The translations under genes and the position numbers were made by a program. Shown here piece after piece: positions 3,091 to 28,361 of a stretch of 64,000 nt of DNA. Source of the DNA: Prevotella sp. E9-3. GTDB taxonomy: Bacteria; Bacteroidota; Bacteroidia; Bacteroidales; Bacteroidaceae. How positions within the stretch are numbered: position 1 is the stretch's first letter; each line of letters opens with the position of its first letter. Under the pieces are notes generated by a model. The model made no database searches. It was given only the letters and a program-made list of their open reading frames with translations, and was not told the origin of the DNA. The stretch lies in NCBI RefSeq assembly GCF_022024015.1, contig NZ_CP091786.1, positions 1,116,001 through 1,180,000 of the forward strand, written 5' to 3'.

Positions 3091-3218
3091 TTATACATTG
3101 CTATATTTTTATTTAACGCAAACTCTTGATTAGTAAGAGTTTGCGTTTTGTATTATATAAATATTGCTTATACATTCACTTACTTTCTTTAATGTACGTG
3201 TAGAATGTGTTAATTTTG
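3091..3218 (+). promoter_or_regulatory. Two-box promoter (copy A) of the GH31 - SusE/F-like - GLUG - GH31 - GLUG operon
   Basis: TTATACA boxes at 3091 and 3168 (77 bp apart), with TAATTTTG at 3211-3218, 43 bp after the second box. The same layout recurs at 16505, 19718, 23761 and 28233. An inverted half-site TTGTATTA lies at 3148, 20 bp before box 2. The upstream gene's terminator sits between the two boxes. Confidence 0.75.
3115..3151 (+). terminator. Terminator of the DUF6377 regulator gene
   Basis: Perfect 13-bp arms AACGCAAACTCTT (3115-3127) and AAGAGTTTGCGTT (3135-3147) with a 7-nt loop, followed by TTGT. Confidence 0.8.
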
Positions 3219-3249
3219 CAACAACTAAAAACTCAAAAGTAGTAATGAT

Positions 3250-5517
3250 ATGAAACAACTTAACGATATGAAACAACTATTCAAATTCATTTTTCTCTTT
3301 GTGGGATTGATGCCAGCTGTTGCTCAGGAATATAATCCAGTGGCAAATCCCCAGGCGATTGTTCAGGAGGGTAGGGCACGTTTTACAGTGCTGACTCCCG
3401 AAATGATTCGTATTCAGTATAGCGAAAAGCAAAAGTTTGAAGACCGTGCCACTTTTGCTGTTGTAAACCGCCGCTTGCCGGTTCCTCAGTTCACTACCGA
3501 GCGTGAGGACGGCTATCTGGTTTTAAAAACATCTGCTCTCACACTTAAATATAAATTAGGTAGTGAGATCAAAGCCGGTCGTCCAGATGATTCTGTTCTA
3601 ACCATTTGTTTCAATCTGAATGGACGCAACGTGACGTGGTATCCCGGAAAGGATGATGCACTCAACCTGAAGGGTACTACGCGCACGCTGGATGGTCAGA
3701 TTGGTGACAACAAACGCGCAGAATTAGAAAATGGTCTGTTGTCACGTGCTGGTTGGAGCATCATCGACGAGTCTCCTAAAACTCGTCGCGGTGATGGTTC
3801 AACAACTTTTGCTTTCGACAAGAGCGTTGATGGTATCGAGTGGGTGGCTCAGCCAGTTGACAAGAATGCTATCGACTGGTATTTCCTTGGTTATGGTCAT
3901 CAGTACAAGAAAGCTCTTGGCGATTACATCAAGGTAGCTGGACGTCAGCCCATGCCTCCTCTCTATGTGCTCGGTTATTGGTATAGTAAGTATCAGCGCT
4001 ATACCAGCGATGAGTTCATGGAGATTGTAAACGATGTGAAGCGCAACCAGATTCCTATGGATGTGATGATTTTTGATATGGACTGGCATACGCAAGGATG
4101 GACAGGTTGGACTTGGGATCGTACGGCTATTCCCGATCCAGAGGGTTTGATAGATTGGATGCATCAGAATGGATTAAAGGTTTCATTGAACCTGCATCCA
4201 GCCGATGGCGTTGACGAAGATGAAGACTTCTTTACTGACTTACGTGATGATATGGGTATGGCTGCCGATACAAAGGTTGTTCCTTGGAACCTCAGCGACG
4301 GTAAGTTCTATCACAATATGTTCAACCGTATCATCCGTGCCCGTGAAAAGCAGGGCGTTGATTTCTGGTGGCTCGACTGGCAGCAGAATCTTACCAGTAA
4401 GTATGTCGATGGTCTGAGTGAGACTTTCTGGTGCAATCATGTGTTCTATAACGATATGCGTTTGAATCGTCCCGATCATCGTCCTTTGATTTTCCATCGT
4501 TGGGGTGGACTTGGTAGTCATCGTTATCCTATTGGTTTCTCTGGCGACTCATTCACCACTTATGGAACCCTTGCATGGCAACCCTATTTCACTGCAACTG
4601 CTTCAAATGTATGCTTTGGTTATTGGGGACACGATTTGGGTGGACACCAACAGACTGGTCCTAACGATCCTGAAATCTACCTGCGTTGGATGCAGTATGG
4701 TGTGTTTACTCCCGTTTTCCGTACCCATGCTACCAACTGGGATGGAATTGAGCGTCGCATCTGGAAGTACGAAAACTTCCCCTTGCTTCTTGAAACCGTA
4801 AAACTGCGCTATGCCCTGATGCCATACATCTATACAGCAGCACGTCAGGCTTACGATACAGGCGTTTCGCTCTGTCGTCCTCTCTACTACGAGTGGCCTG
4901 AAGAAGGAAAAGCCTATCAGTTTGAAGATGAGTATATGTTCGGTGACGACATTCTTGTAGCTCCTGTCGTAACACCTTCTGGTGCTGATGGAAAAGCTTC
5001 ACGTCTCACTTGGCTTCCCGAAGGCAAATGGTTCGATGTATGTCGCAATGCTGTAGTTGAAGGAAATCGTACTTTCACCGATAACTATACACAGGAAGAA
5101 ATTCCTTACTTCTATCGTGCAGGATCTGTTATCGTAAACTATCCTCCTGTAATGAATCTTAACACCCGTCCCGACCGCCTTATCCTGAAGGTGGTGCCTG
5201 GTGCCGATGGAACCTCTTCTCTGTATGAGGATGAAGGCGATACTGAAGGTTATAAGAAAGGTGCTTATACCACAACACGTCTTCGTCATGAAGGAAATCA
5301 GCTCACCATTGAGCCACGTGTAGGTTCATTCCCTGGAATGCCTGCCACCCGTGCTTATACGGTTGAGTTCCTGGCCACTGAACGTCCTGCTTCTGTACTC
5401 GTTAATGGCAAGCAGCAAGCCAGTGGCGTATGGAACTATAATGAGCAGACTAAGGTGACCACAGTCTATGTGCCCATCACTTTATGCGATAAGAAAATTT
5501 CTGTCGAGATTCAATAA
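3250..5517 (+). CDS. Exported GH31-family alpha-glycosidase (WLDWQQ type)
   Basis: A 755-residue protein with a signal peptide ending AVAQ. ATG at 3250 or the in-frame ATG at 3268 (MKQLFKFIFLF) both give one. Order: N-terminal galactose-mutarotase-like domain, TIM barrel (~230-560), then DUF5110-like C-terminal beta domains (YEDEGDTEGY). The nucleophile should be D376 in FWWLDWQQ and the acid/base D433 in GFSGDSF. The nucleophile motif differs from the WNDMNEP of the alpha-glucosidase-type GH31s at 9382 and 52685, so specificity probably differs. Its close paralogue is at 28388, and each is followed by a SusE/F-like gene. There is no C-terminal sorting tail, so a periplasmic site is likely. 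First gene of a five-gene operon behind a two-box promoter. Confidence 0.9.
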   Translation: MKQLNDMKQLFKFIFLFVGLMPAVAQEYNPVANPQAIVQEGRARFTVLTPEMIRIQYSEKQKFEDRATFAVVNRRLPVPQFTTEREDGYLVLKTSALTLKYKLGSEIKAGRPDDSVLTICFNLNGRNVTWYPGKDDALNLKGTTRTLDGQIGDNKRAELENGLLSRAGWSIIDESPKTRRGDGSTTFAFDKSVDGIEWVAQPVDKNAIDWYFLGYGHQYKKALGDYIKVAGRQPMPPLYVLGYWYSKYQRYTSDEFMEIVNDVKRNQIPMDVMIFDMDWHTQGWTGWTWDRTAIPDPEGLIDWMHQNGLKVSLNLHPADGVDEDEDFFTDLRDDMGMAADTKVVPWNLSDGKFYHNMFNRIIRAREKQGVDFWWLDWQQNLTSKYVDGLSETFWCNHVFYNDMRLNRPDHRPLIFHRWGGLGSHRYPIGFSGDSFTTYGTLAWQPYFTATASNVCFGYWGHDLGGHQQTGPNDPEIYLRWMQYGVFTPVFRTHATNWDGIERRIWKYENFPLLLETVKLRYALMPYIYTAARQAYDTGVSLCRPLYYEWPEEGKAYQFEDEYMFGDDILVAPVVTPSGADGKASRLTWLPEGKWFDVCRNAVVEGNRTFTDNYTQEEIPYFYRAGSVIVNYPPVMNLNTRPDRLILKVVPGADGTSSLYEDEGDTEGYKKGAYTTTRLRHEGNQLTIEPRVGSFPGMPATRAYTVEFLATERPASVLVNGKQQASGVWNYNEQTKVTTVYVPITLCDKKISVEIQ

Positions 5518-5553
5518 TTATCATTCCCAGACACGCTAAAAAAGCAATTGATT

Positions 5554-6282
5554 ATGAAGAGATTATTATTTCTTTCAATAGCCATTCTGGCCTGCATCGG
5601 CCTCTCAGCCCAGCAGTATAAAGAACTTTGGATTTCAGGTTCTGCCGTTCCTGGTGGTGTGCAGAAACTGGAGAAAGTCAGTGACACCGATTTTAAGTAC
5701 GCTGGTGCCTTGAAGGCAGGCGAACTGTTTGTGACAACTACTAAGAAAGTTGGCAAGGCCACTCGCTTTCTGGCTGCTGGCGTTGCTGATGCCAATATCG
5801 TAAACCGTGGAATCGGTTATCGTGAAAAGACAGATAAAGATGGTGCAGCTTGGCAAGTTGTTGTTGCCGACGATCATTATCGCTTTCATGTCTTAGTCTA
5901 TGAGAAGCGCCTTCAGGGCGAAATCTTCCAACCTTGGGGTGAGCTTTTTATCGCAGGTGGCGCAACTGGTACCAAGTGGCAGAAGGCCGAAGGCCATATG
6001 CTTTTGATGAAACAGAATGTTGAGAATCCTTATATTTGGTCATGGGAAGGCGTCCTCAGTCGTCACGATGATGTAGAGGAACCTGCCAGTTTTAAGTTTG
6101 AAGGACAGGACCGTTGGCGTCCGAAAGAACTGCATCCTTATGCTGCCGATACCGATATCTTAGTTGATCAGCGTCTGCGCACTTTCGGAAGCGACACCAA
6201 GTGGACCATTAGCAAGGAAGGTCGTTACCGTATCGTGGTCGATCTTTTCAAGGAAACGGTGAAGGCTGAACTTTTGAAATAA
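5554..6282 (+). CDS. SusE/SusF-like starch-binding-type exported protein
   Basis: 242 residues from ATG 5554; the TTG six bases upstream is not needed. Signal peptide MKRLLFLSIAILACIGLSAQ without a lipobox cysteine. Two tandem beta-sandwich units begin ELWISGSAVPGG and ELFIAGGATGTKW, with PYIWSWEGVL and a closing GRYRIVVDLFKETVKAEL. These resemble the SusF_SusE carbohydrate-binding domain (glycan binding next to a SusCD system in other loci), but known SusE/F are lipoproteins and this one is not. It lies 37 bp after the GH31 gene, and the same pair recurs at 28388/30813, so the two products probably act on one glycan. Identification rests on motif pattern only. Confidence 0.6.
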   Translation: MKRLLFLSIAILACIGLSAQQYKELWISGSAVPGGVQKLEKVSDTDFKYAGALKAGELFVTTTKKVGKATRFLAAGVADANIVNRGIGYREKTDKDGAAWQVVVADDHYRFHVLVYEKRLQGEIFQPWGELFIAGGATGTKWQKAEGHMLLMKQNVENPYIWSWEGVLSRHDDVEEPASFKFEGQDRWRPKELHPYAADTDILVDQRLRTFGSDTKWTISKEGRYRIVVDLFKETVKAELLK

Positions 6283-6318
6283 TCATTATACAACCAATAT
6301 TACTAATTAACTATAAGT

Positions 6319-9300
6319 ATGAAAAAGAATTTACTCATTTCTATGCTGTTGTCCTTCATGGGATGTTGGACCGGCATGTCTGAGGCCAATGCCTTAGAGA
6401 AAGTTAATGATGTTTACCAGATCACAAACGGACAGGATTTGGCAGACTTCTCAAATGTGGTTGCCAGTGGCAATGGTAGTGCTAATGCCGTTCTGACTGC
6501 CGATATTGACATGACTGGTATTGATTTTGCTCCTATTGGTAGCTTGAGCAGCCCCTATAGTGGAACTTTTGATGGTCAGCAACACTATATCCAGAGTCTT
6601 ACCTTGGAACTTCCCGAGCAGGAGTATGTTGGTTTGTTCGGTGTTTTGAGCAATGGCGCCTATATTAAGAATGTTATTGTCGATTGGTCTTGCGTAATTT
6701 CTGGCTCTGCTTTCGTTGGAGGTATTGCCGGTGGAACTTCAGGCCAGGGTACAGTTACTTTCGAAAATTGTGGTAACGAGGCTGCTGTAGGTGCTACGAA
6801 TCAAAATGCAGCTGGTATTTGTGGCGTGAGCATGGGCAGTGGTTGCGGTATCGTTATGTTGAACTGTTTCAATACTGGTGGTATTGCCGGTGATCGTGAA
6901 TGTGCTGCTCTTTGTGGTTGGGTTGGCGATAATGGTAGTTTGATACAGAACTGCTATAATGCTGGTTTTATTGTCGGTATGGATGGTTCCTTCTCTCTCT
7001 TTAGAAATCAGAGAGGTAAGGGTACAGGCAACTTCGACACTTATGGAAATCAGGGAACTCTGATCAGCAGTGATGAGTATGATCTTGGTTCTGGTTCTGT
7101 TTGCTATCAGATGAACGCTAACAAGACAGAGAATGTTACATGGTATCAGAAGATAGGTGAGGATGCTCATCCCGTACCTTTTGCTTCTCATGGCGTTGTA
7201 TATGCTGTAGGTGAACTCAACTGTGACGGTACTTCTAAAGGCGGCGATTTGTCTTTCTCAAATACTGATGAGTCTATTCGTGATGCTCACACCTTCGAGA
7301 ATGGTGTTTGTACCAAATGTGGTGATGTAGATCACAACTTTAAGCAGCCTGTTGATGGTTATTATGAACTGGCTAACGCTATCGACCTGAACTGGTTTGC
7401 TGGTATGGTGAATCATGGCGTTAAGAAAATCAATGCCCGCTTGACTGCCGATATCGATTTCACTGAATATACCAAGAAAGACATTATGATTGGCGGTTTC
7501 TCAGCAGATGGCAATAAAGAAGATGCTGAAGAGTCAGGATTTGTAGGCATTTTCGATGGTCAGAACCATAAGATCACTATCGACTACAAAGCAACTTATG
7601 ATGCAGTGGCTCTGTTCAAGGTCGTTTCTGATGCTACTATCCGCAATCTTATTGTTGAAGGAACCATTGAGAGTGACATGCGTTTCATGGGTGGCTTGGG
7701 CTTCGTAAGCCGTGGTACCAGTCTCTTTGAAAATATCATCGTTAATGTAAATATTACCGGTAGCTACCCTGGTGATGCAACCGACGGTGGTATCTTTGCC
7801 GTATGTCATGAGTATCCTACTTTCCGTAACTGTGCTTTCGTTGGTTCGATGAATATTCCTTCAAGTGAGGGTAGTGCTGCCATTATCGGTTATGCACACG
7901 GTCAGGTTGAAACTATCATCGAGAACTGCTATGTTGCTCCTACTTTGCTCAGTTTCACTGGCAACTCAACCGTCATTGCCCGTCACGTAGGCAATATTGA
8001 CAACTGCTATTATACTGAGAATATTGATATGATCATTGATGAGGCTACTTCTGTACCTGAAACAGCTCTCGCTACTGGCGAACTCTGCTATCTGTTGAAC
8101 GAAGGTGGTGCCAAGGACGCTTGGCGTCAGAATCTGCCTGGTGATGCTTATCCTGTACCTTTCGCTGACCACAAAATGGTTTATGCTAATGGTTCTTTGA
8201 AGTGTGACGGTACCCTTACCGATGATATTCACTATTCTAATGAAGAGAGTGAGGCTCAGCGTCCCGACCATACCTATGTTAATGATATCTGCACTGTTTG
8301 TGGCGCCCGTATCATCCGCACTGTTGAGCAGCTGCAGCAGTTGGCTGCTGATGTAAACGACGGAACTATTGACAAGAGCATCATTGTTGACCTCGTAGAG
8401 GATTTGGATTTGACTGGTGTAGATTACGTTGCTATTGGTAGCCGCACTAAGAAAATGGTTGATACTGGCGAAGTAGATGATGACCAGCAGCCTATCATGC
8501 GTGAAGAAGACATTAAGTGTCCATTCAATGGTACTTTCGATGGCCATGGTCACCGTATCAGTAATATGGTGATTGAGGCTGAATCAAGCAATCAGGGTCT
8601 CTTCGGTCTGGTTCAGGCAGGTTCAACCATTAAGAATGTAGTTGTTTCTGGTGAAATTTATTCTATTGGCCATTCTGCCGGTATCGTTGGTACATCTGTT
8701 GGCAAGGGTGTTCTTACCATTGAAAACTGCGGTAGTGAAGTGTTGGTTAATGTAGGTGCTGACGGCCCTAATGGTGCAGGTATTCTCGGCGTAAACGATT
8801 TGAGTGCTGCTTATGTTCGCATCATTAACTGCTATAGCACTGGTGATATTGTTGGTTCTCGCGAGTGTGGTAATATCTCTGGTTGGCTTGGTGACCGTGC
8901 TGAGGTTATCAATACCTGGGCAAGTGGTATTGTAAGCGCCGAAGCTATTGACGGTACTAAATCATTTGCACGTTTCAATGCCAATGGTGCTACCTTCACT
9001 AACTGCTATGAGGTGTTGGGTACTCAGGATAACGTTGGTTTTATTGAGTATGATGATCTGGCCAGTGGTAAGCTCTGCTATCTGATTAATAAAGGTTCTG
9101 ACGAGCCTGTGTTCTATCAGAAACTCGGTACCGATTTGTTCCCTGTATTCGATGCAAGCCATGGTCTTGTTTACTACGATGGCAAGGATACTTACTCAAA
9201 CGATCCTTCAGTTGACGTGAAGTCTGTAGTTGCAACACAGTCTGGTACTCCTGCCGTTATCTATTCACTCTCTGGTGCTCGTCAGCAGCAGATGCAGCGT

Positions 9301-9357
9301 GGTATGAACATCGTTCGTATGACTAATGGAACAGTAAAGAAAGTGTTAGTAAAGTAA
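6319..9357 (+). CDS. Large secreted GLUG-repeat protein with Prevotella-type C-terminal tail (1)
   Basis: 1012 residues with a signal peptide (~1-26). Three long modules start near residues 30, 340 and 664. Each opens with a lead such as NGQDLADFSNVV and NAVLTADIDMTG, then GTFDGQ, followed by GLUG-type repeats (GGIAGG, NCGNEA, NAAGI). Such repeats are thought to fold as a right-handed beta-helix. Modules are joined by short linkers with a His and a CxxC pair (CTKCGDVDHNF, CTVCGARII). The tail (VIYSLSGARQQ...IVRMTNGTVKKVLVK) resembles that on other secreted proteins here and suggests surface anchoring or export. GLUG repeats occur in bacterial surface proteins and adhesins; no catalytic motif is visible. 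Third gene of the operon, one of five such paralogues in the window. Confidence 0.8.
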   Translation: MKKNLLISMLLSFMGCWTGMSEANALEKVNDVYQITNGQDLADFSNVVASGNGSANAVLTADIDMTGIDFAPIGSLSSPYSGTFDGQQHYIQSLTLELPEQEYVGLFGVLSNGAYIKNVIVDWSCVISGSAFVGGIAGGTSGQGTVTFENCGNEAAVGATNQNAAGICGVSMGSGCGIVMLNCFNTGGIAGDRECAALCGWVGDNGSLIQNCYNAGFIVGMDGSFSLFRNQRGKGTGNFDTYGNQGTLISSDEYDLGSGSVCYQMNANKTENVTWYQKIGEDAHPVPFASHGVVYAVGELNCDGTSKGGDLSFSNTDESIRDAHTFENGVCTKCGDVDHNFKQPVDGYYELANAIDLNWFAGMVNHGVKKINARLTADIDFTEYTKKDIMIGGFSADGNKEDAEESGFVGIFDGQNHKITIDYKATYDAVALFKVVSDATIRNLIVEGTIESDMRFMGGLGFVSRGTSLFENIIVNVNITGSYPGDATDGGIFAVCHEYPTFRNCAFVGSMNIPSSEGSAAIIGYAHGQVETIIENCYVAPTLLSFTGNSTVIARHVGNIDNCYYTENIDMIIDEATSVPETALATGELCYLLNEGGAKDAWRQNLPGDAYPVPFADHKMVYANGSLKCDGTLTDDIHYSNEESEAQRPDHTYVNDICTVCGARIIRTVEQLQQLAADVNDGTIDKSIIVDLVEDLDLTGVDYVAIGSRTKKMVDTGEVDDDQQPIMREEDIKCPFNGTFDGHGHRISNMVIEAESSNQGLFGLVQAGSTIKNVVVSGEIYSIGHSAGIVGTSVGKGVLTIENCGSEVLVNVGADGPNGAGILGVNDLSAAYVRIINCYSTGDIVGSRECGNISGWLGDRAEVINTWASGIVSAEAIDGTKSFARFNANGATFTNCYEVLGTQDNVGFIEYDDLASGKLCYLINKGSDEPVFYQKLGTDLFPVFDASHGLVYYDGKDTYSNDPSVDVKSVVATQSGTPAVIYSLSGARQQQMQRGMNIVRMTNGTVKKVLVK

Positions 9358-9381
9358 TATTAATAGTAAAGTAGTAATTGT

Positions 9382-11532
9382 ATGACTTTAAGAGTCAGTA
9401 TGTTTCTTAGTAGTCTGGCCATCACCCAATGGGTGATGGCTCAGGCTTCTTTTGTTACCGACGATCGCGTCGCAGTTTTTTATCCGGCCCAGTATGATGC
9501 AAGCCTTCATCAACCTTCGCCCATTTTCGAGCGTGAGCCGGCAGCCATTAACCCTTTACCTTCTGATTGGCAAGTTCGGCCAAAGTTCAGTGAACATGAC
9601 GGGAAGACTGTCGCAACGATTAATATTGAGGAAGGAACAGACTTGTATGGGACCGGTGAAGTCACGGGTCCCTTGCGTCGTAATGGACGTACCGTTGGCT
9701 TGTGGAATATCGATACTCCCGCCTATGGTGTTGATAATGGTACGCATTTGTATCAGAGCCATCCTTGGGTGATGGGTGTCCGTAAAGATGGTAGTGCCTT
9801 TGGTATCATTGCCGACAATACCTGGAAGCAGAGTATCAAGACTGCCGACCGTGAGGTAACTTTCGAGAGTGAAGGCCCTGCTTTCCGTGTTGTAGTCATT
9901 GAACGTAATGATCCCAAAGAGCTGATGCAGGCCCTTGTTGATCTTACCGGAACTATGGAACTTCCACCGTTGTGGTCACTTGGCTATCAGCAGTGCCGTT
10001 TCAGCTATCATCCTGACACCCGTGTTAAGGAGATTGCCGACACCCTTCGCTATCACAAGATTCCTACCGATGTAATCTGGATGGACATCCACTATATGGA
10101 TAGCTATAAGATTTTTACTTTCCATCCACAGGAATTCCCCAATCCCAAAGAGCTCAACGATTATCTGCATCAGAAAAATCTGAAGGCTGTTTATATGATC
10201 GACCCCGGTGTAAAGGTTGAACCTGGCTATTTCGTTGACGATCAGGGTACAGCTGGTGATTTCTGGGTGAAAGATAAGGATGGAAAGCCCTTTGTAGGCA
10301 ATGTTTGGCCTGGTCCTTGTCATTTCCCCGATTTCACTCGTCCTGAGGTACGCACCTGGTGGGCAACTCTTTACAAGGATTATATGGCCACAGGTATTGA
10401 TGGCGTATGGAACGATATGAACGAGCCTTCAGTATTTGGTGGACCCGATGGAACTATGCCTGTTGACAACTGGCATAAGGGTGGTGATGGTGTTGCTGCC
10501 GGTCCTCACGCACGTTTCCACAATGTGTTTGGCCTGAATATGGTGCGCGCCAGTCGTCAGGGCCTTTTGCTGGCCAATCCACAGAAGCGTCCTTTCATTC
10601 TTTCGCGTTCAAACTTCCTGGGTGGTCATCGCTATGCAGCCACTTGGACAGGCGATAACCTGTCTTCTGTCGAGCAGATGAAGCTCAGTGTTCCCATGAC
10701 GTTAACCCTCGGACTTTCTGGTCAGCCTTTCAACGGTCCTGATATCGGTGGTTTCTGTGAAAGCGCTACTGGCGACTTGGTGGCTCAGTGGACAGCTATG
10801 GGTGTATTTTTCCCCTTCGTACGCAACCACACCATTGATGGAAGTGTTAATCAGGAGCCTTGGGCTTTCACTCCCGAAGTGCTTAATGCTTGTCGCACGG
10901 CTATTGAGCGCCGCTATATCCTGATGCCCTATATCTATACAGCCTTCCGTGAGGCCAGTGTTGATGGTATGCCTGTGATGCGCCCCTTGTTTATGGCCGA
11001 TGCCAAAGACCTCTCTCTTCGTGGTGAGGATCAGGCATTCCTGTTGGGTGGCGATCTGATGATTACTCCTCGTTGGGCCGAGAATGTTGCTCAGCCTAAT
11101 GGCGGAACTTGGCAGATTGTTGATTTGTCCACTCTCAACTCTAAACTTTCAACTCCCAAGTCGGATAAGTATCAGGCAGAGCTCCGTCAGCGTCCCGGTT
11201 CAGTGATTCCTGTGGCCAACCTTGCTCAGAGCACCACAGAGATGACTACCGATTCACTCACACTCTTCGTTTGTCTTGATGCTGAGGCCAAAGCCCAAGG
11301 TCAGCTTTACGAAGATGAAGGCGATGGATTCTCATACAGAGAAGGCAACTATGCGCTCTCTACACTCAAAGCTTCACTTGATAAGAAGATACTCACCGTA
11401 TCAGTTTGTCAGACTGAAGGAACGATGTCCAAGCCTGAACGCTCTCTGCGTATTGCCTATGTGAAGAACGGTAAAGTGCAGTACTCTGCATGGCAGAAAG
11501 GCAATCAGGCATCCATGAAAGTTAAGAAATAA
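9382..11532 (+). CDS. Exported GH31 alpha-glucosidase-type enzyme
   Basis: 716 residues with a signal peptide (ending VMAQ). N-terminal beta-sandwich, TIM barrel, then beta domains with YEDEGDGFSYREG. The nucleophile is D345 in WNDMNEPSVF and the acid/base D425 in WTGDN, the classic alpha-glucosidase/isomaltase signature of GH31. It hydrolyses non-reducing-end alpha-glucosyl units in family members. No sorting tail, so probably periplasmic. Paralogous to the GH31 at 52685 (same start VFYPA.YDA..HQPSPIF). Unlike that paralogue it carries an extra ~10 residues (STLNSKLSTPK) near 585, encoded by four copies of a 7-bp repeat. It lies 24 bp after one GLUG gene and 43 bp before another, so it is co-transcribed with them. 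Confidence 0.92.
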   Translation: MTLRVSMFLSSLAITQWVMAQASFVTDDRVAVFYPAQYDASLHQPSPIFEREPAAINPLPSDWQVRPKFSEHDGKTVATINIEEGTDLYGTGEVTGPLRRNGRTVGLWNIDTPAYGVDNGTHLYQSHPWVMGVRKDGSAFGIIADNTWKQSIKTADREVTFESEGPAFRVVVIERNDPKELMQALVDLTGTMELPPLWSLGYQQCRFSYHPDTRVKEIADTLRYHKIPTDVIWMDIHYMDSYKIFTFHPQEFPNPKELNDYLHQKNLKAVYMIDPGVKVEPGYFVDDQGTAGDFWVKDKDGKPFVGNVWPGPCHFPDFTRPEVRTWWATLYKDYMATGIDGVWNDMNEPSVFGGPDGTMPVDNWHKGGDGVAAGPHARFHNVFGLNMVRASRQGLLLANPQKRPFILSRSNFLGGHRYAATWTGDNLSSVEQMKLSVPMTLTLGLSGQPFNGPDIGGFCESATGDLVAQWTAMGVFFPFVRNHTIDGSVNQEPWAFTPEVLNACRTAIERRYILMPYIYTAFREASVDGMPVMRPLFMADAKDLSLRGEDQAFLLGGDLMITPRWAENVAQPNGGTWQIVDLSTLNSKLSTPKSDKYQAELRQRPGSVIPVANLAQSTTEMTTDSLTLFVCLDAEAKAQGQLYEDEGDGFSYREGNYALSTLKASLDKKILTVSVCQTEGTMSKPERSLRIAYVKNGKVQYSAWQKGNQASMKVKK
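11132..11159 (+). repeat. Four heptanucleotide repeats inside the GH31 coding sequence
   Basis: CTCTCAA CTCTAAA CTTTCAA CTCCCAA, four 7-bp units in tandem. The encoded residues are absent from the paralogue at 52685. A gain or loss of one unit would shift the frame. Confidence 0.7.
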
Positions 11533-11575
11533 CTTAATAACTATTCATTAATTATTAACCTATAAGAATGTGATT

Positions 11576-16504: not shown

Positions 16505-16632
16505 TTATACAAAATTAATTGTTGATTTCTTCTAAATGTTTGTATATTAGTTGATTGTGATTGTTTTGTTTCAAAATGGTCTTATACATTTTATATGTAT
16601 TGTACGCGTGTACGTGAAAAGCCTTAACTTTG
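16505..16632 (+). promoter_or_regulatory. Two-box promoter (copy B) of the GLUG gene at 16679
   Basis: TTATACA at 16505 and 16582 (77 bp apart); TAACTTTG at 16625-16632, 43 bp after box 2. A TGTACGCGTG stretch lies between box 2 and the -7 element; a related TGTACGTGTA is at 3193 in copy A. Confidence 0.75.
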
Positions 16633-19717: not shown

Positions 19718-19846
19718 TTATACAATTGTGCAAACGAAATTTTTATAATTAGCTAAAAATCAATAGATTTGCATTCTGTTGCATTGATTTTTGATTATAC
19801 AATCTATAATATCTGATTTCTCTATGCACAAAATGCACTATTTTTG
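19718..19846 (+). promoter_or_regulatory. Two-box promoter (copy C) of the GLUG gene at 19892
   Basis: TTATACAA at 19718 and 19795 (77 bp apart); TATTTTTG at 19839-19846, 44 bp after box 2. Between the boxes is a 10-bp inverted repeat AAAAATCAAT / ATTGATTTTT (19755-19764, 19783-19792) not shared by the other copies. Confidence 0.72.
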
Positions 19847-19891: not shown

Positions 19892-22800
19892 ATGAAAAGA
19901 CTAAAACAATTACTCATTTCATCCCTAATACTTGGGGGGGGGCATTTTTGGTAATCAGGCCTGGGCGTTGGAACAGGTAAATGGTGTCTATCAGATTGGA
20001 ACGGCCGATGAACTCATCGAGTTTGCGGGTATTGTCAATGGTGGTGCAACTGGTGCCAATGCCGTACTTACGGTAGACATTGACATGACCGATAAGTCAT
20101 GGACACCGATAGGTAGTATTTCAAAAGTCTATGAAGGAACTTTTGATGGTCAAGGCTATCGTATCAGTCATCTGACTATTAATACTAGTGATTCATATCA
20201 AGGACTTTTTGGCGTAGTTACTGACGGCGTCTATATCAAGAATGTTTTCATTGATAATACCTGTTCAATATCAGGTGGTGATTATACCGCCGGTATTGTT
20301 GGTGGCTCAAATGGTGGCAGTAGCAATACAAAGAAGTTAAGAATTGAAAATTGTGGAAATGAGGCTAATATAAACAGTAATGGTGCTAATGCTGCAGGTA
20401 TTTTCGGATGTAACATAAACGGATCCTCATCTGTTAAAATAAAAAATTGCTACAATACAGGAAATATTTCTGGAGGTCGCGAATGTGGAGCCATTTCTGG
20501 CTGGCTTGGTGGTGGCTGGAGTGAAGTTTCTAACACATACAATACTGGAACTGTTAAAAATAATTCAGTAGAATCTAATGAATTTGGAAGGAATAATGGA
20601 TGTAATTTCGTACGTTGTTATTCGACAGGAACCCCTAATCAAGGGACTTCCGTTACAAGCGATCAAATCGCCAATGGCACACTCTGTGGCAATCTGAATA
20701 GTGACCAACCCTATTTTTTTCAGAAAGACGGGAGACCCTTACCTTTGCTTTTTTGTAAGAAAAAGGCAGCTGATGGCTATTATGAGTTAGCGAATGCTGA
20801 TGACGTGAAGTGGTTCTCTGAACGCGTATGGACTTATCGTTACAATGAACTGGGTGGTAGTGATGTTGGAAATGTTGACTGTAATGCGCCTCTGAATGCA
20901 CGTCTTACTGCTGATATTGATTTCACCGATGTCAATGACTACCGTCCTATTGGCGGTTTATGGGGGAGTTCTGCAACTCGGTACACAGGCACCTTCGATG
21001 GTCAAGGACATAAAATCAGTAATCTTATTATCAACAATGGTTATGATAATCAAGGCTTCTTCGGCGTTATTTCAAACGGTGCCGTCATCAAAAACATGCT
21101 TTTAGACAATACGTGCAGTATCAGTGCGAAATCGGCTGTAGGATTTATTGGAAAGGTTTGGAGGTCAACAGGTGGAGATGTTTATATTCAAAACTGTGGC
21201 AATGAAGCTACCATTACCTCAAGTGGCAGTAATGCTGGTGGTATTCTTGGCGTCAATCAGAATAACGATGGCTACGTTGTTCTTCACATGGAAAACTGTT
21301 TCAATACAGGCAATGTGAGTGGAAATGAAAGTGGGGGCTTAACGGGATGGACAGGCGACAATGCTGTATTAACGAACTGCTACACTGCAGGAAGTTCGTC
21401 GGCTACTGATTTCTTTGCAAGGATTGGAAATGGCAGTACCTTGACTAATTGCTATACAACAGGTAGCAAGGATAATGTAACTACCATCACAAGTGAACAA
21501 GTGAGTAATGGCAATCTGGCTTATTTGCTAGGCAATACGGTCTGGCACCAGACTATTGGTACCGATAGGCACCCTTATCCGTTCAGCGGTGACCATATGG
21601 TGGTATCGAAAGACAACGATGATTACTATAATGGTAGTAACTTATTTTCCATAGCTTCTGGAAGTGAATTGAATACTTTCGCTACCAATTACAATAATGG
21701 TATGTATGCTGGAGCATGCAAGGTGAAGTTGACAAGTGATTTGGATATGTATGGTATCAGCTACCCTGGTATTGGTGTTGACAGCCATTATTTTGTGGGT
21801 GTCTTAGATGGTCAGGGGTACATCATTAGTAATCTTAGAATGATAGGCATCGATCACGACAATATAGGTTTTATCAATGCGGCTAATGCACCGTCAAGCA
21901 TCAGAAACTTAACACTCGACAATTCTTGTAGTATCAATGTCTCAGGCATGAAATATGTGGGTGGCATAATGGGCGCTTGTTTTGGAGATGGCATCGTTTC
22001 TTTTTATAATTGTGGAAATGAGGCGGCTATAACAGCAAATAAGAATCCTGGCGGTATTTTGGGATGCAATCTTTCAGGTGGTGTTACCATACAGATGAAA
22101 AATTGTTACAATACTGGTGCAATCACGGGAGCAAACTTCAATGATAGTGAAGGTGGTGGCATTTCTGGCTGGTTGGGGAACAATTCCGTAATAACCAACT
22201 GCTATAGCACAGGTAGTGTAAGCTATGGCGAAGCTTTCGCACGAGGCAACAGTGCTACTGTCACCAATTGTTATGCTCTCGAAGCCAGTGGCGGCGGAAA
22301 TTGTGTTAATGCAAATTATACCAAGACTGCCGATGAATTTGCAGACGGAACTGTGTTTGCGAAACTCTTTGACTACACCAACGATGATCTTGCTGTAAAC
22401 GGTAACGTTTGGCGTATGGACTATGATGCTGCTACTCCTCACCCAGTGCTTTATGGTGATGCAATAGCTATGCGTGAGGACTGCACAAACAGAATGATTG
22501 AAGGAACATACGATTTGACTCTCTATCGCATCATCAAGCAAGGTGGCTGGAACACGTTCTGCGTGCCATTCGACATGACCAGTGCTCAGATTACCGCCTA
22601 CTTCGGCGCAGGTACAGAAGTAGCAGTGCTGGATGAAAGCAAGAATGGTCTCAATGATGATGTACTCCACTTCAAGCAGGTTAACGAAATCGAGGCAGGA
22701 CAGGCCTATCTGGTTTATCCTGGAGTCGCTGCAGACTTTAGCTCCAAGGCAATTGAAGGCGTGACAATCAGCGCAACTTCACCTCAAGATGGTATCACTC

Positions 22801-23129
22801 AGGCAGGCTTTACCTTCAAGGGCGTTTACGAGCCTACTGCATTGGATGCAGCTGTTGACCGTATTGTTGTTTCTGGCAACAAGATTGTGAAGACAACGGG
22901 TGGTAAATTGAATGGCTTCCGTGCTTACTTTAAGCCAACAGGTGCCAATGCTCGTGCTACTCGTTTTGTGATTGACGATGACGATGTGGTAACAGGCATC
23001 ATCACTGCTGAGGGCGAGGTGATTATGGATCAGCCGGTCTATAACCTTCGCGGACAAAGAGTGCAGGAGGGTAACAGCTCTTCACGCGGACTGCTGATTA
23101 AGGGCGGAAAGAAATACGTGAAGATGTAA
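19892..23129 (+). CDS. GLUG-repeat surface protein (4), frameshifted by a 9-G run in the signal peptide
   Basis: Starting at ATG 19892 the frame reads MKRLKQLLISSLILGGGHFW and stops. With one G fewer (8 instead of 9 at 19934-19942) it continues as LILGGGIFGNQAWALEQVNG, a normal signal peptide joined to a 1078-residue protein. From the G-run on, the frame is open to 23129. Three GLUG modules (leads near 19976, 20774 and 21645) are followed by a beta-rich domain with the motif WNTFCVPFDM (shared with the gene at 23943 and loosely with the C10 protease) and a tail PVYNLRGQRVQ...GLLIKGGKKYVKM. It lacks the CxxC linkers of its paralogues. Either the product is phase-variable through the G-tract or the run was miscounted in sequencing. 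Own two-box promoter; followed 54 bp later by a small-protein gene. Confidence 0.75.
19934..19942 (+). repeat. Nine-G homopolymer that sets the reading frame of the GLUG gene
   Basis: Nine consecutive G's inside signal-peptide codons. Eight G's (or eleven) restore the full protein, nine give a 20-residue peptide. Long G runs are otherwise rare in this AT-rich sequence. Confidence 0.9.
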
Positions 23130-23345: not shown

Positions 23346-23406
23346 GTCAACATTTTAGAGTCTATAACTGCATTTCTTTAGATTCTATCTACATACTGTT
23401 ATTTTG

Positions 23407-23469: not shown

Positions 23470-23556
23470 TAGTCTTTATTCTGTTGACTCTCGAAAGGCT
23501 ATCAGTTACTGCGTAAAGTAATATACCTTTCACTTCAATAGAGCAACGGGTAAAAT

Positions 23557-23619
23557 AAATTATAGCTATAATTTTCGGAATTATAGCCATAATCTTCAAA
23601 ATTATAGCTATAATTTGTT
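23557..23619. repeat. Array 2: three 21-bp quasi-palindromic units, core TATAGCTATA
   Basis: Units start at 23557, 23578 and 23599. Units 1 and 3 carry the perfect 18-bp palindrome AAATTATAGCTATAATTT; unit 2 is a variant with AATTATAGCCATAATC. Unit length and copy number match array 1, but the sequence is unrelated. Confidence 0.85.
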
Positions 23620-23760
23620 TTAATGGTTTTGCGGAATGGATGAAACAGACGTACTATTAGCATGTAGTTTTTGTTCTTTTGCTTACCTATTCTATCGGTT
23701 TTTAAACCTATTTAGTTGTTTTATACTGCGTTTTTACTAATTTTTGAATAAATATTTGTG

Positions 23761-23888
23761 TTATACAACAAAGATTTTAGTAATATGTTAAGTATTTGAT
23801 TTATAGATTATTATGTTTTGTATAATACTTTTTTTTATTATACAATTATTTATTTATGTGCGCGTATGAATAATACTCTTTAAATTTG
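23761..23888 (+). promoter_or_regulatory. Two-box promoter (copy D) of the GLUG gene at 23943
   Basis: TTATACAA at 23761 and 23838 (77 bp apart); TAAATTTG at 23881-23888, 43 bp after box 2. An inverted half-site TTGTATAA at 23818 lies 20 bp before box 2, exactly as in copy A. Confidence 0.75.
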
Positions 23889-23942
23889 CAGGAGAAAATA
23901 ATATAACTAAGCTTAAACCAAAATTTATTACAACTATTAATT

Positions 23943-26900
23943 ATGAAGCAGAATCTAAAAACTTTTTTTCTTACTGCCTTGCTAAGTCTAGCAGTAGGAA
24001 GTGCGTGGGCCATTGAACCCGTTGATGGTGTTTATAAGATTGGTTCGGCTCAAGATTGGTCTGAGTTCTGTACTTTGCACAATGAAGGTGCGAACCAAAA
24101 TCTCAATGCTGAACTTACTGCCGATGTTACTGTTGAAGGCAATGCCATGGTTGGTATCAACGGAGGTGGTAAGCCCTATCGTGGCGTGTTTGACGGTAAG
24201 GGACACAAACTGACTATCAGCTACAATCTGAACGAAGAGCGTGTTGCACCTTTCCGTCGTATTAATGGCGCTACCATTAAGAACCTGATTGTAGAGGGAA
24301 CCATCACCACTACTTCGAAACTTGCATCTGGATTGGTCGGTGGATTGTGGCAGAATGGTACCACAATTCAAAATTGTATAAGCTATGTTGTTATCACCGA
24401 CGATCAGGGTGGTGATGCTACTCATGGTGGTATCTGCGGTAGCTTTGAGGATGTGAATGGCGCAAATACTATTGAGAACTGTGCCTTTTTAGGTGAAATC
24501 AATGCCCCCAATCGCGAAGGATGTGGCGGTATTGTTGGTTGGACAAACAACAACAATAGCAACAACATCATTCGTAATTGTCTTGTCAATGCTGCTGGCT
24601 TCAATGTGAAGACTGGTAGCAACAATGACATTATCTGCCGCAACAACGGTAATGTTGTAAACTGCTATTACATTGGCAGCATTGATGGGATGCGTAACGA
24701 CAAAGGTGCTACGGCTGCTACAACCGAACAGGCAGAGAGCGGTGAGCTGTGCTATATTCTGAATGGCAAAACGAGTACTAATGTTGGATGGTTTCAGACA
24801 ATAGGTGTCGATAATATTCCTTTGCCTATTGGAACAGCCGTTGTCTATGCTAATGGAGAACTAAGATGTGATGGCATAACACCAAAGCCAGGCTCTGAAC
24901 TGACTTTCTCCAATGTAGATGGCAGTACAATAGATCCTCATGATTATGTTGATGGAATCTGTTCTTTTTGTCATGACTTACAATTAGTAGCAGGTGTATA
25001 TCAGATTGGTTGCGCAGACGCGCTTATTCGCTTTGCTGAGATTGTTAACAGTGGTAATGGTACTGCCAATGCTGTTCTCACTAAGAATATAGATATGACT
25101 GATAAGTCGTGGACTCCTATTGGACAAGATGGTAAAGACTTCGCCGGACATTTTGATGGACAGAACTTCCGTATCCAAAATCTTGTTGTAAATAATCTTG
25201 GCGCCTATGATAACCAGGCTCTTTTCGGACAGGTTGTTGGAACAGCTGTGATTGAAAATGTGATAATGGATGCATCGTGCTCTATAAAAGGAAAGGAGCA
25301 TGTCGCAGGCATTCTTGGACATGTCTGGGGACATGGTGCTATCATCAGAAATTGTGTGAATGAGGCATATGTGGAATCATCAGGTAGTCAAGCTGCAGGT
25401 ATTGTGGCAACTGCTGAAAGAAAAGTGTTTATCCAGAATTGTGTAAATAAGGGTGCTGTTAAGAGCAACTCCAATTCTGCTGCGGGTATTTTGGCACGTG
25501 TCTGGGGCGATGGTACGGATACGGAAGTGACTAATTGTACTAATGAAGGAACTATCACTGGAACCGGTGGGGAAATAGGAGGAATTGTCGCTTCCCTCAA
25601 TAAAGCTATAACAGTCAGCAATTGTCGTAATACAGGTTCTGTAAACGGAACTGGCAGTTTTACTGGAGGTGTTGTAGGTCGTATTTGGAGTGATAACGTG
25701 ATTGTCCAAAACTGTGGCAATGAAGGTGCTGTAACAGGTGGTGGTGCCAATGCCGCAGGTATCGTTGGCTGTTCTGGTAATATTGTTAAGATTTTGAATT
25801 GTTATAATCTTGGAAATATTATCGGTGGAAATGAAAGTGCTGCCATTTGCGGATGGATGGGTGCAGGTTCGTCTGAGTTAAAAAACTGTTATAGTACTGG
25901 AACTGTTACAGGTATTGATGGTACAAACTACTTGATTCGCAAAACGGATATTATTAGAAACAACAACTATCAGCTTGCTGGAATGCCAGGTGATCAAGGA
26001 ACATCTTTTGCAGCTGCAGACTTAGCAAGTGGCAAACTGGCATATCTGTTGAATGGTAGCAAGAGTACAGACGTGGCTTGGTATCAGAATCTTGGTGCTG
26101 AAGCCGATGATTATCCTCTGCCTTGGGGCACTGCTATAGTTTATAAGAATGGTGACCTCTATTGTGATGGAAGTTCAAAAGGTAGCGAATCTTATTCAAA
26201 TATTGAAGGCTCAAATCGTGATGAGCACCATTTTGTTAATGGCTTCTGCGATAATGTGAATGGTAGTAGTGTTGTTTGCGACGAGTTAGATCTTTCTTTC
26301 ATGACACCTTCTGAAGGCTATTATCAAGTTTCTACCGCCCGTCAACTTCGTTGGACTGCTGCTGTCTCTCAGGAGTCAGCAAATGCAGGTATCAAAGTTA
26401 AACTGTTGAATAATATTGATATGGCTGGTGAGAAGTTTGATGGCTTTGGTTCTAACGATTCAGAGGCAAATCGCTTTAAGGGTGAGATTGATGGCCAGCG
26501 TCATATTATTTCTAATCTGAAGATGGACTTTGATCGCAATGGCGTTGGACTCGTGAATACAGCTACAGTTGGTGCTATTATTTCTAATCTGACTATAGCA
26601 AGTTCTTGCGAGTTTAAGGGACAGAGTGCAGTTGCAGCCTTTATTGGAGCTGTACGTGGTACTAGTGGTGACCTGTATATTCGCAATTGTGGAAATGAAG
26701 GCTTGGTAACAGCGACAGGAGCTAATGGAGCAGGCTTCGTGGGTTGTAAATACGATGATGATGTAATTCCAAACCTCACAAATTGCTATAATGTTGGCGA
26801 AATTCATAGCTCAAATGATGGAGGTAGCTTCTCGGGATGGATGCCAAAGGCTGTGTTGACAAACTGCTATAGTATAGTATCACCCGATAATGGCTATGGT

Positions 26901-27815
26901 TTCCAAGAGGGAAATCAGTTCGGACGAGGATGGAGTCAAGCTATTAATCATTGCTACGATTACGGTACTGGTGATTGGGGACAAAATAATGGTACATGGG
27001 GCGCAGCCTTTATTGATGGACGTAAAATCACTGTGGTGGACGAGTCTTCTATGACTACAATGTTTGCTGGCTTGCTTGCTTACAACGAAGGCGGTGTTGA
27101 TGGTAGCGTTTGGCGTATGGGTGATGATCATCCTGTACTCTATGGTAATCAGATTGCTATGCGTGAGGACTGCACCAATAGAATTGTGGAAGGTAACTTC
27201 GACGTGAAACTCTATCGCACACTGAAAGCTGATAAGTGGAACACCTTCGTGGTTCCCTTCGATTTGAGCACTGATGAGCTGAAGGCTGCCTTCGGTGATG
27301 GTGTAGAAGTGGCTGAATATAGTGAAACTGCTGATGCTCAGAATGCTGAGAACTCTATTGTGACCTTCAGTTCTATGGCTACTCCTGAAATCACAGCAAA
27401 TGTGCCTGTAATGCTGAAGAGTGCCAATAGTGGCGTGTTCAGCTTCACTGGACGTACTGTTAAGGCTGGTGATGCTATCGTAGCTGGAAACGCAAACTTC
27501 GACTTCGTAGGTTCTTACAACAAGGAGACTGTGGTTGCTGAAAACGACTACTACCTGAGCGATAATAAGATCTTCAAGTCATTGGGTAATGGTTCTACCA
27601 TTTCTGCTACCCGTGCTTATATCAAGACCAAGGATGGTTCAAATGCCCGTATCGCTTCGTTCTTTATCGATGGCGAAGGACAGACTACTGGTATTGTAAA
27701 TGCTAAGAAGGTTGATACAAAAGACTATTACAACCTGAACGGTCAGCGTGTGGATAAAGCTCAGATGAGAAAGGGCCTCTACATTCGCGACGGTCGTAAA
27801 ATGGTGGTGAAGTAA
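23943..27815 (+). CDS. Largest GLUG-repeat surface protein (5)
   Basis: 1290 residues, signal peptide to ~GSAWA, mature start IEPVDGVYKIG. Modules start near residues 27, 350 and 792. Module 2 is expanded, with many short NCxNxGxVxGxxxxxAGI units between ~430 and 650. A beta domain with WNTFVVPFDL begins near 1100, and the tail DYYNLNGQRVDKAQ...GLYIRDGRKMVVK ends it. Linkers carry CSFCHDLQ and a longer Cys pair near residues 770-780. Module 1 is nearly identical in DNA to the gene at 11576. Likely cell-surface; no enzyme motif. Own two-box promoter; followed 33 bp later by a small-protein gene, then a strong terminator. Confidence 0.82.
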   Translation: MKQNLKTFFLTALLSLAVGSAWAIEPVDGVYKIGSAQDWSEFCTLHNEGANQNLNAELTADVTVEGNAMVGINGGGKPYRGVFDGKGHKLTISYNLNEERVAPFRRINGATIKNLIVEGTITTTSKLASGLVGGLWQNGTTIQNCISYVVITDDQGGDATHGGICGSFEDVNGANTIENCAFLGEINAPNREGCGGIVGWTNNNNSNNIIRNCLVNAAGFNVKTGSNNDIICRNNGNVVNCYYIGSIDGMRNDKGATAATTEQAESGELCYILNGKTSTNVGWFQTIGVDNIPLPIGTAVVYANGELRCDGITPKPGSELTFSNVDGSTIDPHDYVDGICSFCHDLQLVAGVYQIGCADALIRFAEIVNSGNGTANAVLTKNIDMTDKSWTPIGQDGKDFAGHFDGQNFRIQNLVVNNLGAYDNQALFGQVVGTAVIENVIMDASCSIKGKEHVAGILGHVWGHGAIIRNCVNEAYVESSGSQAAGIVATAERKVFIQNCVNKGAVKSNSNSAAGILARVWGDGTDTEVTNCTNEGTITGTGGEIGGIVASLNKAITVSNCRNTGSVNGTGSFTGGVVGRIWSDNVIVQNCGNEGAVTGGGANAAGIVGCSGNIVKILNCYNLGNIIGGNESAAICGWMGAGSSELKNCYSTGTVTGIDGTNYLIRKTDIIRNNNYQLAGMPGDQGTSFAAADLASGKLAYLLNGSKSTDVAWYQNLGAEADDYPLPWGTAIVYKNGDLYCDGSSKGSESYSNIEGSNRDEHHFVNGFCDNVNGSSVVCDELDLSFMTPSEGYYQVSTARQLRWTAAVSQESANAGIKVKLLNNIDMAGEKFDGFGSNDSEANRFKGEIDGQRHIISNLKMDFDRNGVGLVNTATVGAIISNLTIASSCEFKGQSAVAAFIGAVRGTSGDLYIRNCGNEGLVTATGANGAGFVGCKYDDDVIPNLTNCYNVGEIHSSNDGGSFSGWMPKAVLTNCYSIVSPDNGYGFQEGNQFGRGWSQAINHCYDYGTGDWGQNNGTWGAAFIDGRKITVVDESSMTTMFAGLLAYNEGGVDGSVWRMGDDHPVLYGNQIAMREDCTNRIVEGNFDVKLYRTLKADKWNTFVVPFDLSTDELKAAFGDGVEVAEYSETADAQNAENSIVTFSSMATPEITANVPVMLKSANSGVFSFTGRTVKAGDAIVAGNANFDFVGSYNKETVVAENDYYLSDNKIFKSLGNGSTISATRAYIKTKDGSNARIASFFIDGEGQTTGIVNAKKVDTKDYYNLNGQRVDKAQMRKGLYIRDGRKMVVK

Positions 27816-27848
27816 ATAATGAATGTTTATCTTTAATAGTTTGAAGTT

Positions 27849-28022
27849 ATGAAAAAGAAATATATTTCTCCAGCACTGTCTTTTGAAGATACCCTGGATT
27901 TAGCTGACATAATGACCGCCTCTATTGTTAGTGTAGGAGGTGAAACAGGCATCGAAAAAGGCGGCGATGAAGTTGAACCGAACCAAGGTGATGCTCGTCC
28001 CTTCGATGTATGGGATGACTGA
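27849..28022 (+). CDS. Small protein (57 aa) downstream of a GLUG gene
   Basis: It begins MKKKYISPALSFEDTLDLAD and continues with a small-residue region SIVSVGGETG and an acidic end RPFDVWDD. The start resembles the 53-residue protein at 23184; both lie right after GLUG genes with the VPFD domain and before terminators or promoters. No signal peptide or known domain. The Gly-rich centre and conserved N-terminus are compatible with a leader-type small protein, but this is only a pattern. Confidence 0.6.
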   Translation: MKKKYISPALSFEDTLDLADIMTASIVSVGGETGIEKGGDEVEPNQGDARPFDVWDD

Positions 28023-28174
28023 TATGACGATTAGTTAGTTGTAGTTTTTATATATAGTTTTGATAGATTTGTTAGTTATTTTGTAGTTGTTAGTAAGAAT
28101 GTTTTACCATTCTGTAAAATGAAATACTGAAGGCTGCGTGATGCAGCTACCAGTCGGAACATATCTCTTTTTGT

Positions 28175-28216
28175 ACAGTCAGGGCAGCACACGGATGCTG
28201 CCCTGATTGTATTTTT
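28175..28216 (+). terminator. Terminator of the GLUG / small-protein unit
   Basis: 15-nt arms ACAGTCAGGGCAGCA (28175-28189) and TGCTGCCCTGATTGT (28196-28210), paired with one G-U, a 6-nt loop and ATTTTTG tail. Confidence 0.9.
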
Positions 28217-28232
28217 GATATACATACTTCTG

Positions 28233-28361
28233 TTATACAAACGGGTGATTGACGAGATGGCTAAGTGGTTGATAGTCAATAAGTATATTATTTTGATAGT
28301 ATAAATATCGTAATACATTTATTATTATATAATAGGTATAGGAGAAAAATGAGTAATTTTG
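28233..28361 (+). promoter_or_regulatory. Two-box promoter (copy E) of the second GH31 - SusE/F-like unit
   Basis: TTATACAA at 28233 and the variant TAATACAT at 28311 (78 bp apart); TAATTTTG at 28354-28361, 43 bp after box 2. Confidence 0.68.

Follow-up and report, generated by a model that had tools for sequence, protein, structure and literature searches.

A conserved midpoint element between the paired boxes of SusR-linked operators in Prevotella sp. E9-3, a candidate DNA-bending site

Introduction

Operators linked to the regulator SusR in Prevotella sp. E9-3 carry a third conserved part between their two known boxes. In a window of 64,000 nucleotides (the whole stretch of DNA that was analysed; contig NZ_CP091786.1, positions 1,116,001 to 1,180,000 of the forward strand), five promoters close to susR combine two direct-repeat boxes, TTATACA or nearly so, with a -7 element of the form TAnnTTTG. 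Operator alignment showed that the spacer also carries the element YAA-N4-YTGAWWWTCAR near the middle of the two boxes. This three-part architecture is almost certainly real in the genus. There, the three parts are found at rigid spacing; elsewhere the box spacing peaks at 67 and 77 bp, and the boxes, not the midpoint, differ with the class of the SusR recognition helix. As judged from sequence, it is fairly probable that SusR activates transcription from two sites brought together by bending of the DNA between them, in the manner of integration host factor (IHF) or HU.

In the starch system, which gave the Sus-like glycan systems their name, SusR was the first regulator to be described. In Bacteroides thetaiotaomicron, it senses an oligosaccharide and activates genes of polysaccharide utilization loci (PULs), according to the accessible text of a 2013 study (Ravcheev et al., 2013; PMC3878776). 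The same text predicts that SusR-like regulators of Bacteroides use direct repeats with centres 67 or 77 bp apart, describes a “long non-conserved spacer”, suggests that SusR binds one side of the DNA as a dimer and states that similar regulators have similar motifs. A 2019 paper says that the SusR mechanism “remains undefined” (PMC6874557), and the available SusR passages of two further papers hold no operator data (PMC12632263; PMC11633381).

Paired boxes around susR

The susR gene and the operators of the window are listed below. TTATACA boxes were located by word count and operator scan, and midpoint scores give the consensus positions matched out of 14.

1470 to 3065, plus strand: susR (NF058541, SusR_regulator; PF19904), reading frame open from 1365
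3091 to 3097, plus strand: operator 1, box 1, TTATACA
3115 to 3147, plus strand: terminator-like hairpin 3' of susR, centred on the midpoint element, 14 pairs and a T-rich tail
3119 to 3136, plus strand: operator 1, midpoint element CAAACTCTTGATTAGTAA, 12/14, 28 bp from box 1; first 13 bases fit the IHF consensus on the other strand
3168 to 3174, plus strand: operator 1, box 2, TTATACA
3211 to 3218, plus strand: operator 1, -7 element TAATTTTG (operator scan)
16505 to 16511, plus strand: operator 2, box 1, TTATACA
16533 to 16550, plus strand: operator 2, midpoint element TAAATGTTTGTATATTAG, 12/14
16582 to 16588, plus strand: operator 2, box 2, TTATACA
16625 to 16632, plus strand: operator 2, -7 element TAACTTTG, upstream of the open reading frame (ORF) 16679-19630
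19718 to 19724, plus strand: operator 3, box 1, TTATACA
19746 to 19763, plus strand: operator 3, midpoint element TAATTAGCTAAAAATCAA, 13/14
19795 to 19801, plus strand: operator 3, box 2, TTATACA
19839 to 19846, plus strand: operator 3, -7 element TATTTTTG, upstream of ORF 19932-23129
23761 to 23767, plus strand: operator 4, box 1, TTATACA
23789 to 23806, plus strand: operator 4, midpoint element TAAGTATTTGATTTATAG, 12/14; first 13 bases fit the IHF consensus on the other strand
23819 to 23825, minus strand: inverted extra box copy upstream of operator 4 box 2 (word count)
23838 to 23844, plus strand: operator 4, box 2, TTATACA
23881 to 23888, plus strand: operator 4, -7 element TAAATTTG, upstream of ORF 23943-27815
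28233 to 28239, plus strand: operator 5, box 1, TTATACA
28262 to 28279, plus strand: operator 5, midpoint element TAAGTGGTTGATAGTCAA, 13/14; first 13 bases fit the IHF consensus on the other strand
28311 to 28317, plus strand: operator 5, box 2, TAATACA (operator scan)
28354 to 28361, plus strand: operator 5, -7 element TAATTTTG, upstream of GH31 28388-30808

The boxes of the five pairs (3091/3168, 16505/16582, 19718/19795, 23761/23838 and 28233/28311) lie 77, 77, 77, 77 and 78 bp apart, and box 2 starts 43, 43, 44, 43 and 43 bp before TAnnTTTG. Ten boxes and five -7 elements had been reported in a preliminary description of this DNA, and all were recovered, with the same spacings and distances. 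The window holds 23 copies of TTATACA, compared with 10.4 +/- 3.5 after shuffling. Upstream of the -7 element, the expected -33 place shows a T-rich stretch alone; the accessible text of PMC7366714 likewise gives TAnnTTTG as the -7 consensus and treats the -33 element as uncertain.

A genome-wide search, which the preliminary description had proposed as a check, returned six matches to TTATACA-N65..75-TWATACA-N30..45-TANNTTTG in the whole 3.73 Mb and none to the reversed pattern; the pairs are well beyond chance. All six lie on the plus strand between 1,109,160 and 1,144,361 (about 35 kb) and surround the only strong susR of the genome. The five promoters first described are all present, but a sixth copy was missed: it lies 6.8 kb left of the window (G000:C1:1109160), upstream of SusC-type and SusD-type genes (L044:13335-18824). 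When the -7 element was left out of the search, nine TWATACA pairs at 75-79 bp were found genome-wide, the six among them, and two in the control. A mismatch-tolerant scan of the window and 20 kb to its left (at most three mismatches over both boxes, spacings of 66-68 and 75-79, box 2 placed 42-44 before T[AT]nnTTTG) revealed no operator beyond the six. The preliminary description gave the GH27, mannan, sigma-factor and trp promoters as lacking the pair, and these scans turned up no additional copy.

Conservation of the three parts within the genus

The strict pattern occurs in 22 of 200 genomes of the genus, and its reversed control in two. With the spacing left free from 62 to 92, 398 genus genomes yielded 89 matches in 47 genomes, against two for the reversed pattern. 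Total length is 126-130 bases in 85 of the 89, equivalent to a box spacing of about 75-79, and conservation of the pairs in related Prevotella, another point put forward for checking, is thus borne out. Among the 57 operators available in full sequence, 55 have a spacing of 75-79, and in 52 the distance from box 2 to the -7 element is exactly 43 bp. One match, in a genome with a strong SusR (G146), shows the odd distances of 79 and 48 bp and may be due to chance. An inverted box copy, TTGTATAA, stands upstream of box 2 in 19 of the 57 operators, at 19-20 bp in 15 of them (reversed control word, 1/57). The word ATAT occupies positions -9 to -6 of box 1 in 37 of the 57, which suggests a box 1 site extending beyond the heptamer. 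Both the inverted copy and ATAT may be further SusR contacts.

The midpoint element, too, has a fixed place. Counted from the start of box 1, it begins at 28 bp in the window operators (29 bp in the 78-bp case; 5/5) and at 27-29 bp in 85 of 86 spacers scoring at least 11. Scores of at least 12/14 are reached by 85 of the 89 genus matches, by 1.9% of shuffled spacers and by 3/89 spacers read backwards. In a held-out set of 44 matches from 25 genomes outside the midpoint discovery set, 43 have the element at 27-29 bp with at least 12/14, compared with 0/44 at each of nine shifted offsets. These held-out offsets, the genome-wide reversed control of zero and the genus-wide controls led to the rejection of a chance origin for pairs or midpoint. 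The four genus matches without a midpoint in the right place (G140:C22, G212:C251, G158:C59 and G132:C2) are possibly due to chance; two matches came from the reversed control. The conservation table was built from the remaining 85, the four being dropped for a score below 12 or a wrong place, so that the conservation it gives is slightly inflated. Within these 85, the N4 gap next to YTGAWWWTCAR varies freely. Reverse-complemented spacers score at least 12 in 50/89 cases; since the palindrome scores high in this orientation too, the direction of the element rests on YAA.

The preliminary description had considered the sequence between the boxes not conserved, spacing rather than sequence being kept. 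The former view does not survive the presence of the midpoint in 5/5 window operators and 43/44 held-out matches, and the latter is half right: the spacing is kept, but so is the sequence of the midpoint. The same description located an upstream terminator inside one spacer, and a terminator-like hairpin does follow susR at 3115-3147. Its 14 pairs are followed by a T-rich tail, the folding z is -6.0 for 3100-3165, and the midpoint sits at the apex.

In operator 1 and 14 further own-genus operators, a hairpin is centred on the midpoint palindrome, and one stretch of DNA may therefore serve as both terminator and operator part. Counted over the genus, 15 of 85 midpoints lie in stems with at least six further pairs, and 69 of 85 have fewer than four and keep the element. 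The midpoint as a mere terminator loop was rejected on the latter count; hairpins are built round the midpoint in some copies and are not its explanation.

SusR and its link to the operators

The protein encoded at 1470-3065 matches NCBIfam NF058541 with 482.9 bits, a narrow margin over the curated cut-off of 480, along profile positions 3-515 of 515. It consists of a sensor part of the tetratricopeptide repeat (TPR) type, one hydrophobic membrane stretch (identified by eye) and DUF6377 (PF19904), which probably ends in a LuxR/NarL-type helix-turn-helix (HTH). The structural model has a predicted local distance difference test score (pLDDT) of 84.7; its last 102 residues reach 95.1, and LuxR/NarL-type entries top their fold search. 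A fold search with the whole model returned mainly TPR proteins. With 483 bits, this is the only strong SusR of the genome, the next own match among those listed having 27 bits.

The susR stop and box 1 of operator 1 are separated by 25 bases. Eight Prevotella/Prevotellaceae loci picked by SusR protein similarity alone each hold one TWATACA pair at 76-79 bp (8/8), and in five of them box 1 starts no more than 30 bp downstream of the end of susR. Conversely, 21 of the 22 strict-pattern genomes encode a protein that matches SusR at E<=9e-125. Only a weak match (1.3e-4) is present in the remaining genome, G158, where the sole pattern match lacks the midpoint. NF058541 is matched at E<=0.001 in 166 of 200 genus genomes (many matches are weak; 75 exceed the cut-off), as against 22 of 200 with the strict TTATACA pattern, which is thus absent from most SusR-bearing genomes. 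The earlier proposal of a two-site operator for one regulator, with the SusR at 1470 as best candidate, is well supported at the level of sequence by the sole strong SusR, the 8/8 loci and the helix-box relation described below; SusR would read the two boxes. Looping, raised in the same proposal, is plausible, with the bend-like midpoint as its candidate physical basis.

Spacing, midpoint and recognition helix in other genera

Across the family, 101 of 151 genomes match NF058541, 32 of them over the cut-off. Operators of other genera were sought in 60 regions round SusR genes (1.02 Mb, 17 genera). Pairs defined by box identity, with the midpoint ignored, numbered 54: 17 at 66-68 bp, 13 at 77-79, none at 69-76 and the remaining 24 scattered at 55-64 and 84-101. 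Ten base pairs correspond to about one helical turn. Two own-genus matches belong to the short class (G245:C78:6838 and G223:C5:34287; total 117 and 118, spacing about 66-67). In both, the midpoint is again found 27-29 bp from box 1, and the missing helical turn therefore falls between midpoint and box 2.

The midpoint matrix of the own genus scores at least 5 in 17 of 28 pairs spaced at 66-68 or 76-78, compared with 0/24 pairs at spacings outside 65-80 (two 79-bp pairs were left out of both groups) and 28/2066 other -7 trials. A search that started from the midpoint gave 40 placements in 31 of the 60 regions with a score of at least 8 and a -7 element at the expected distance, although some of these, with unlike boxes, may be due to chance.

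Outside the genus, the boxes are mostly not TTATACA, and their sequence varies with the recognition helix of SusR. Helix YSVTTIYNYR accompanies box ACTACTTTTT, Y[SA][VAP]NTIYNYR accompanies TCCACTTTT, YSLAT[IV]YNYR accompanies TTTATATTT, YSVKTIYNYR accompanies ACTCCTTTTT and YSVHTVNTYK accompanies TTATACA. In one region (L177), the helix YSVHTIYNYR occurs with box TCTACTTTT. The box code is therefore not a matter of one residue, because VHT pairs with TTATACA in VHTVNTYK and with TCTACTTTT in VHTIYNYR.

This relation was evaluated by permutation in 24 of 68 regions (the other 44 lack a box-only hit), each represented by the row with its best midpoint score. Identity within versus between helix classes is 0.73 versus 0.50 for box 2 and 0.69 versus 0.51 for box 1 (0/2000 permutations each), whereas it is 0.54 versus 0.52 for the midpoint (580/2000). 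At a midpoint score of at least 2, the 17 regions give 0/2000 for the boxes and 885/2000 for the midpoint. The permutation ignores descent and helix class is clade too, so it is the contrast between boxes and midpoint that carries the argument. Chance pairs probably make up three of four members of class Q and one or two of seven in class A. The natural reading of these sequences is that the boxes are recognized by SusR, and the midpoint by some factor that these species share. From the recognition helix of SusR one can apparently predict the box sequence, which may amount to a recognition code (L045-L052, L130-L149, L155-L194).

Likeness of the midpoint to IHF sites

The IHF consensus is WATCAANNNNTTR, and IHF bends DNA up to 180 degrees, as stated in the accessible text of PMC8942017. 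Read on the other strand, this consensus becomes YAANNNNTTGATW, with which the midpoint shares both its words and the four-base gap. Exact matches to YAANNNNTTGATW are found in 24 of 85 midpoints, and 48 of 85 match when Y is allowed for the first T; among the six own operators, three midpoints match exactly (read by eye). Paired kinks characterize the IHF complex, and by analogy the symmetric YTG and CAR halves of the midpoint fit them.

The genome of E9-3 has five matches to PF00216, the three checked being best as HU (one) and as IHF subunits (two). One IHF-like protein (L151:1501-1800) has RNIS where the intercalating arm usually has RNP, and is thus without the proline; in IHF/HU-type proteins, the RNP proline is part of the DNA-intercalating arm. 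That a protein of this family, DNABII, bends the DNA at the midpoint is a moderately likely prediction from the sequence. A literature search, mostly without subscription papers, found no paper in which “SusR” and “integration host factor” occur together, and a search for an IHF-like Bacteroides factor did not bring up the term BHFa among the matches listed.

Similar words occur in a dispersed repeat of about 160 bp, found by BLAST at 17 places outside the window (L225-L241, G000:C1), mostly outside long ORFs. It carries CAA-N4-TTGATATTCAG-N4-TT, the first N4 being variable and the neighbouring words largely fixed in the 14 copies aligned (of the other three, L239 and L240 are incomplete, and L227, although it contains the motif, did not pass the filter). 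The exact 14-position midpoint consensus has 32 matches in the genome and none in the reversed control; the 32 are not independent sites, since about half lie in this one repeat and some count both strands of a single place. E. coli RIB/RIP are dispersed repeats that bear IHF sites. The present repeat is reminiscent of them in carrying the same IHF-like words with a variable N4 gap, but its sequence and phylum differ.

Genes downstream of the operators

The following genes stand downstream of operator 1.

3250 to 5517, plus strand: GH31, first gene downstream of operator 1 (Pfam and ORF)
5548 to 6282: ORF, weakly SusF_SusE-like, after the first GH31
6319 to 9357: ORF between the SusF_SusE-like ORF and the second GH31
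9382 to 11532: second GH31 downstream of operator 1
11570 to 14542: ORF after the second GH31

The ORFs at 6319-9357, 11570-14542, 16679-19630, 19932-23129 and 23943-27815 (983 to 1290 aa) have no Pfam match at E<=0.001, and the earlier label of GLUG surface proteins could not be confirmed for them.

Proposed mechanism and alternatives

From start to start, the operator reads box 1, 28 bp, midpoint, 49 bp, box 2, 43 bp, -7 element. SusR would sense a periplasmic oligosaccharide, and its cytoplasmic HTH, probably of the LuxR/NarL type, would read the two direct-repeat boxes. A DNABII protein of the IHF/HU family would occupy the near-palindromic midpoint and bend the DNA sharply. The SusR bound to box 1 (about -127) would thereby come to lie beside that bound to box 2 (about -50), immediately upstream of RNA polymerase. 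SusR juxtaposed in this way would activate PUL genes from a promoter with only a T-rich stretch at -33. The binding of SusR and of a DNABII protein, the bend itself and the sign of regulation, taken here as activation and not repression, are inferred. The wider proposition is evenly poised: SusR proteins, as a whole family of membrane-spanning sugar sensors of gut bacteria, may work by a helically phased DNA U-turn. The two boxes and the IHF/HU-like bend site between them would make up a single nucleoprotein switch, preserved even as the boxes change according to a recognition code of one helix.

Several observations weigh against this mechanism. Sites of two-fold symmetry would suit a U-turn best, and the boxes are direct repeats without it. 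The six own operators score 12-13/14 for the midpoint and none has the full consensus. In other genera, 11 of the 28 pairs score below 5 for the midpoint, clear ACTCCTTTTT pairs (L149, L182) being among the low-scoring ones, and the element is degenerate in three of the eight loci picked by SusR similarity (L048-L050). Operators were found in 11/30, 6/8, 8/28 and 25/60 SusR loci, counts that require a midpoint score of at least 8 and boxes alike at 6/9. As for the likeness to IHF sites, conservation is roughly equal in the right half, TCAR, and in the left, which is more than the classical IHF consensus requires; G9 is replaced by A as often as it is kept outside the genus (of 19, 9 have A and 8 have G), which weakens the match; and the three checked DNABII proteins fall below the NCBIfam equivalog cut-offs.

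The best surviving alternative, though an unlikely one, is that a second sequence-specific regulator, for instance a global catabolite regulator, binds the midpoint and acts with SusR. YTGAWWWTCAR is nearly palindromic with both halves conserved, like the site of a dimeric factor, and does not vary with SusR helix class. Such a regulator would leave the YAA-N4 part and the near-middle place unexplained. The Crp-like palindrome predicted for Bacteroides was set aside as a candidate, its sequence in the accessible text being different (PMC3878776).

It is less probable still that SusR itself binds the midpoint as the third contact of an oligomer. The element does belong to SusR operators, at a constant distance from box 1; however, the boxes differ by recognition-helix class and the midpoint does not, and exact midpoint matches, the 32 counted genome-wide, also occur away from the six operators. 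That the two boxes alone matter, as in the 2013 model, and that midpoint similarity reflects shared ancestry or terminator sequence is very improbable: tandem operators can arise by duplication, some midpoints (15/85) lie in stems and 11/28 pairs of other genera score low, but the N4 gap beside the element varies freely, 69/85 have no extended stem and the midpoint occurs with unrelated boxes in other genera.

Relation to known systems

The operators resemble the motifs predicted for SusR, SusR2, SusR3 and SusR4 (accessible text of PMC3878776) in being two-site direct repeats, 67 or 77 bp apart, of regulators of glycan genes. Of the traits given there, direct repeats at these spacings and linkage to susR were found here, whereas a non-conserved spacer was not. 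Membership in the 2013 SusR motif stands, and the midpoint amends its description. The two-box spacing had thus already been predicted in 2013; the midpoint, the fixed -7 distance and the relation to the recognition helix, described here, do not appear in the accessible text of that paper.

IHF assists activation at NifA/sigma-54 promoters, where a bend site lies between the upstream activator site and the promoter. In both cases, a bend-like site would bring distant parts together. The SusR operators differ in that the activator has two direct repeats with the bend-like site between them, and in that the -7 element is of the Bacteroides type.

Implications

Since the operator has three parts and its midpoint is fixed, simple promoter variants can put the mechanism of SusR to the test. 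The fixed midpoint offers a reason for both 67 and 77 bp and points to an architectural protein as partner. The apparent relation between helix and box could allow target prediction for uncharacterised SusR proteins. If the U-turn reading is true, new glycan circuits would arise by changing the boxes and one helix, with the bend kept.

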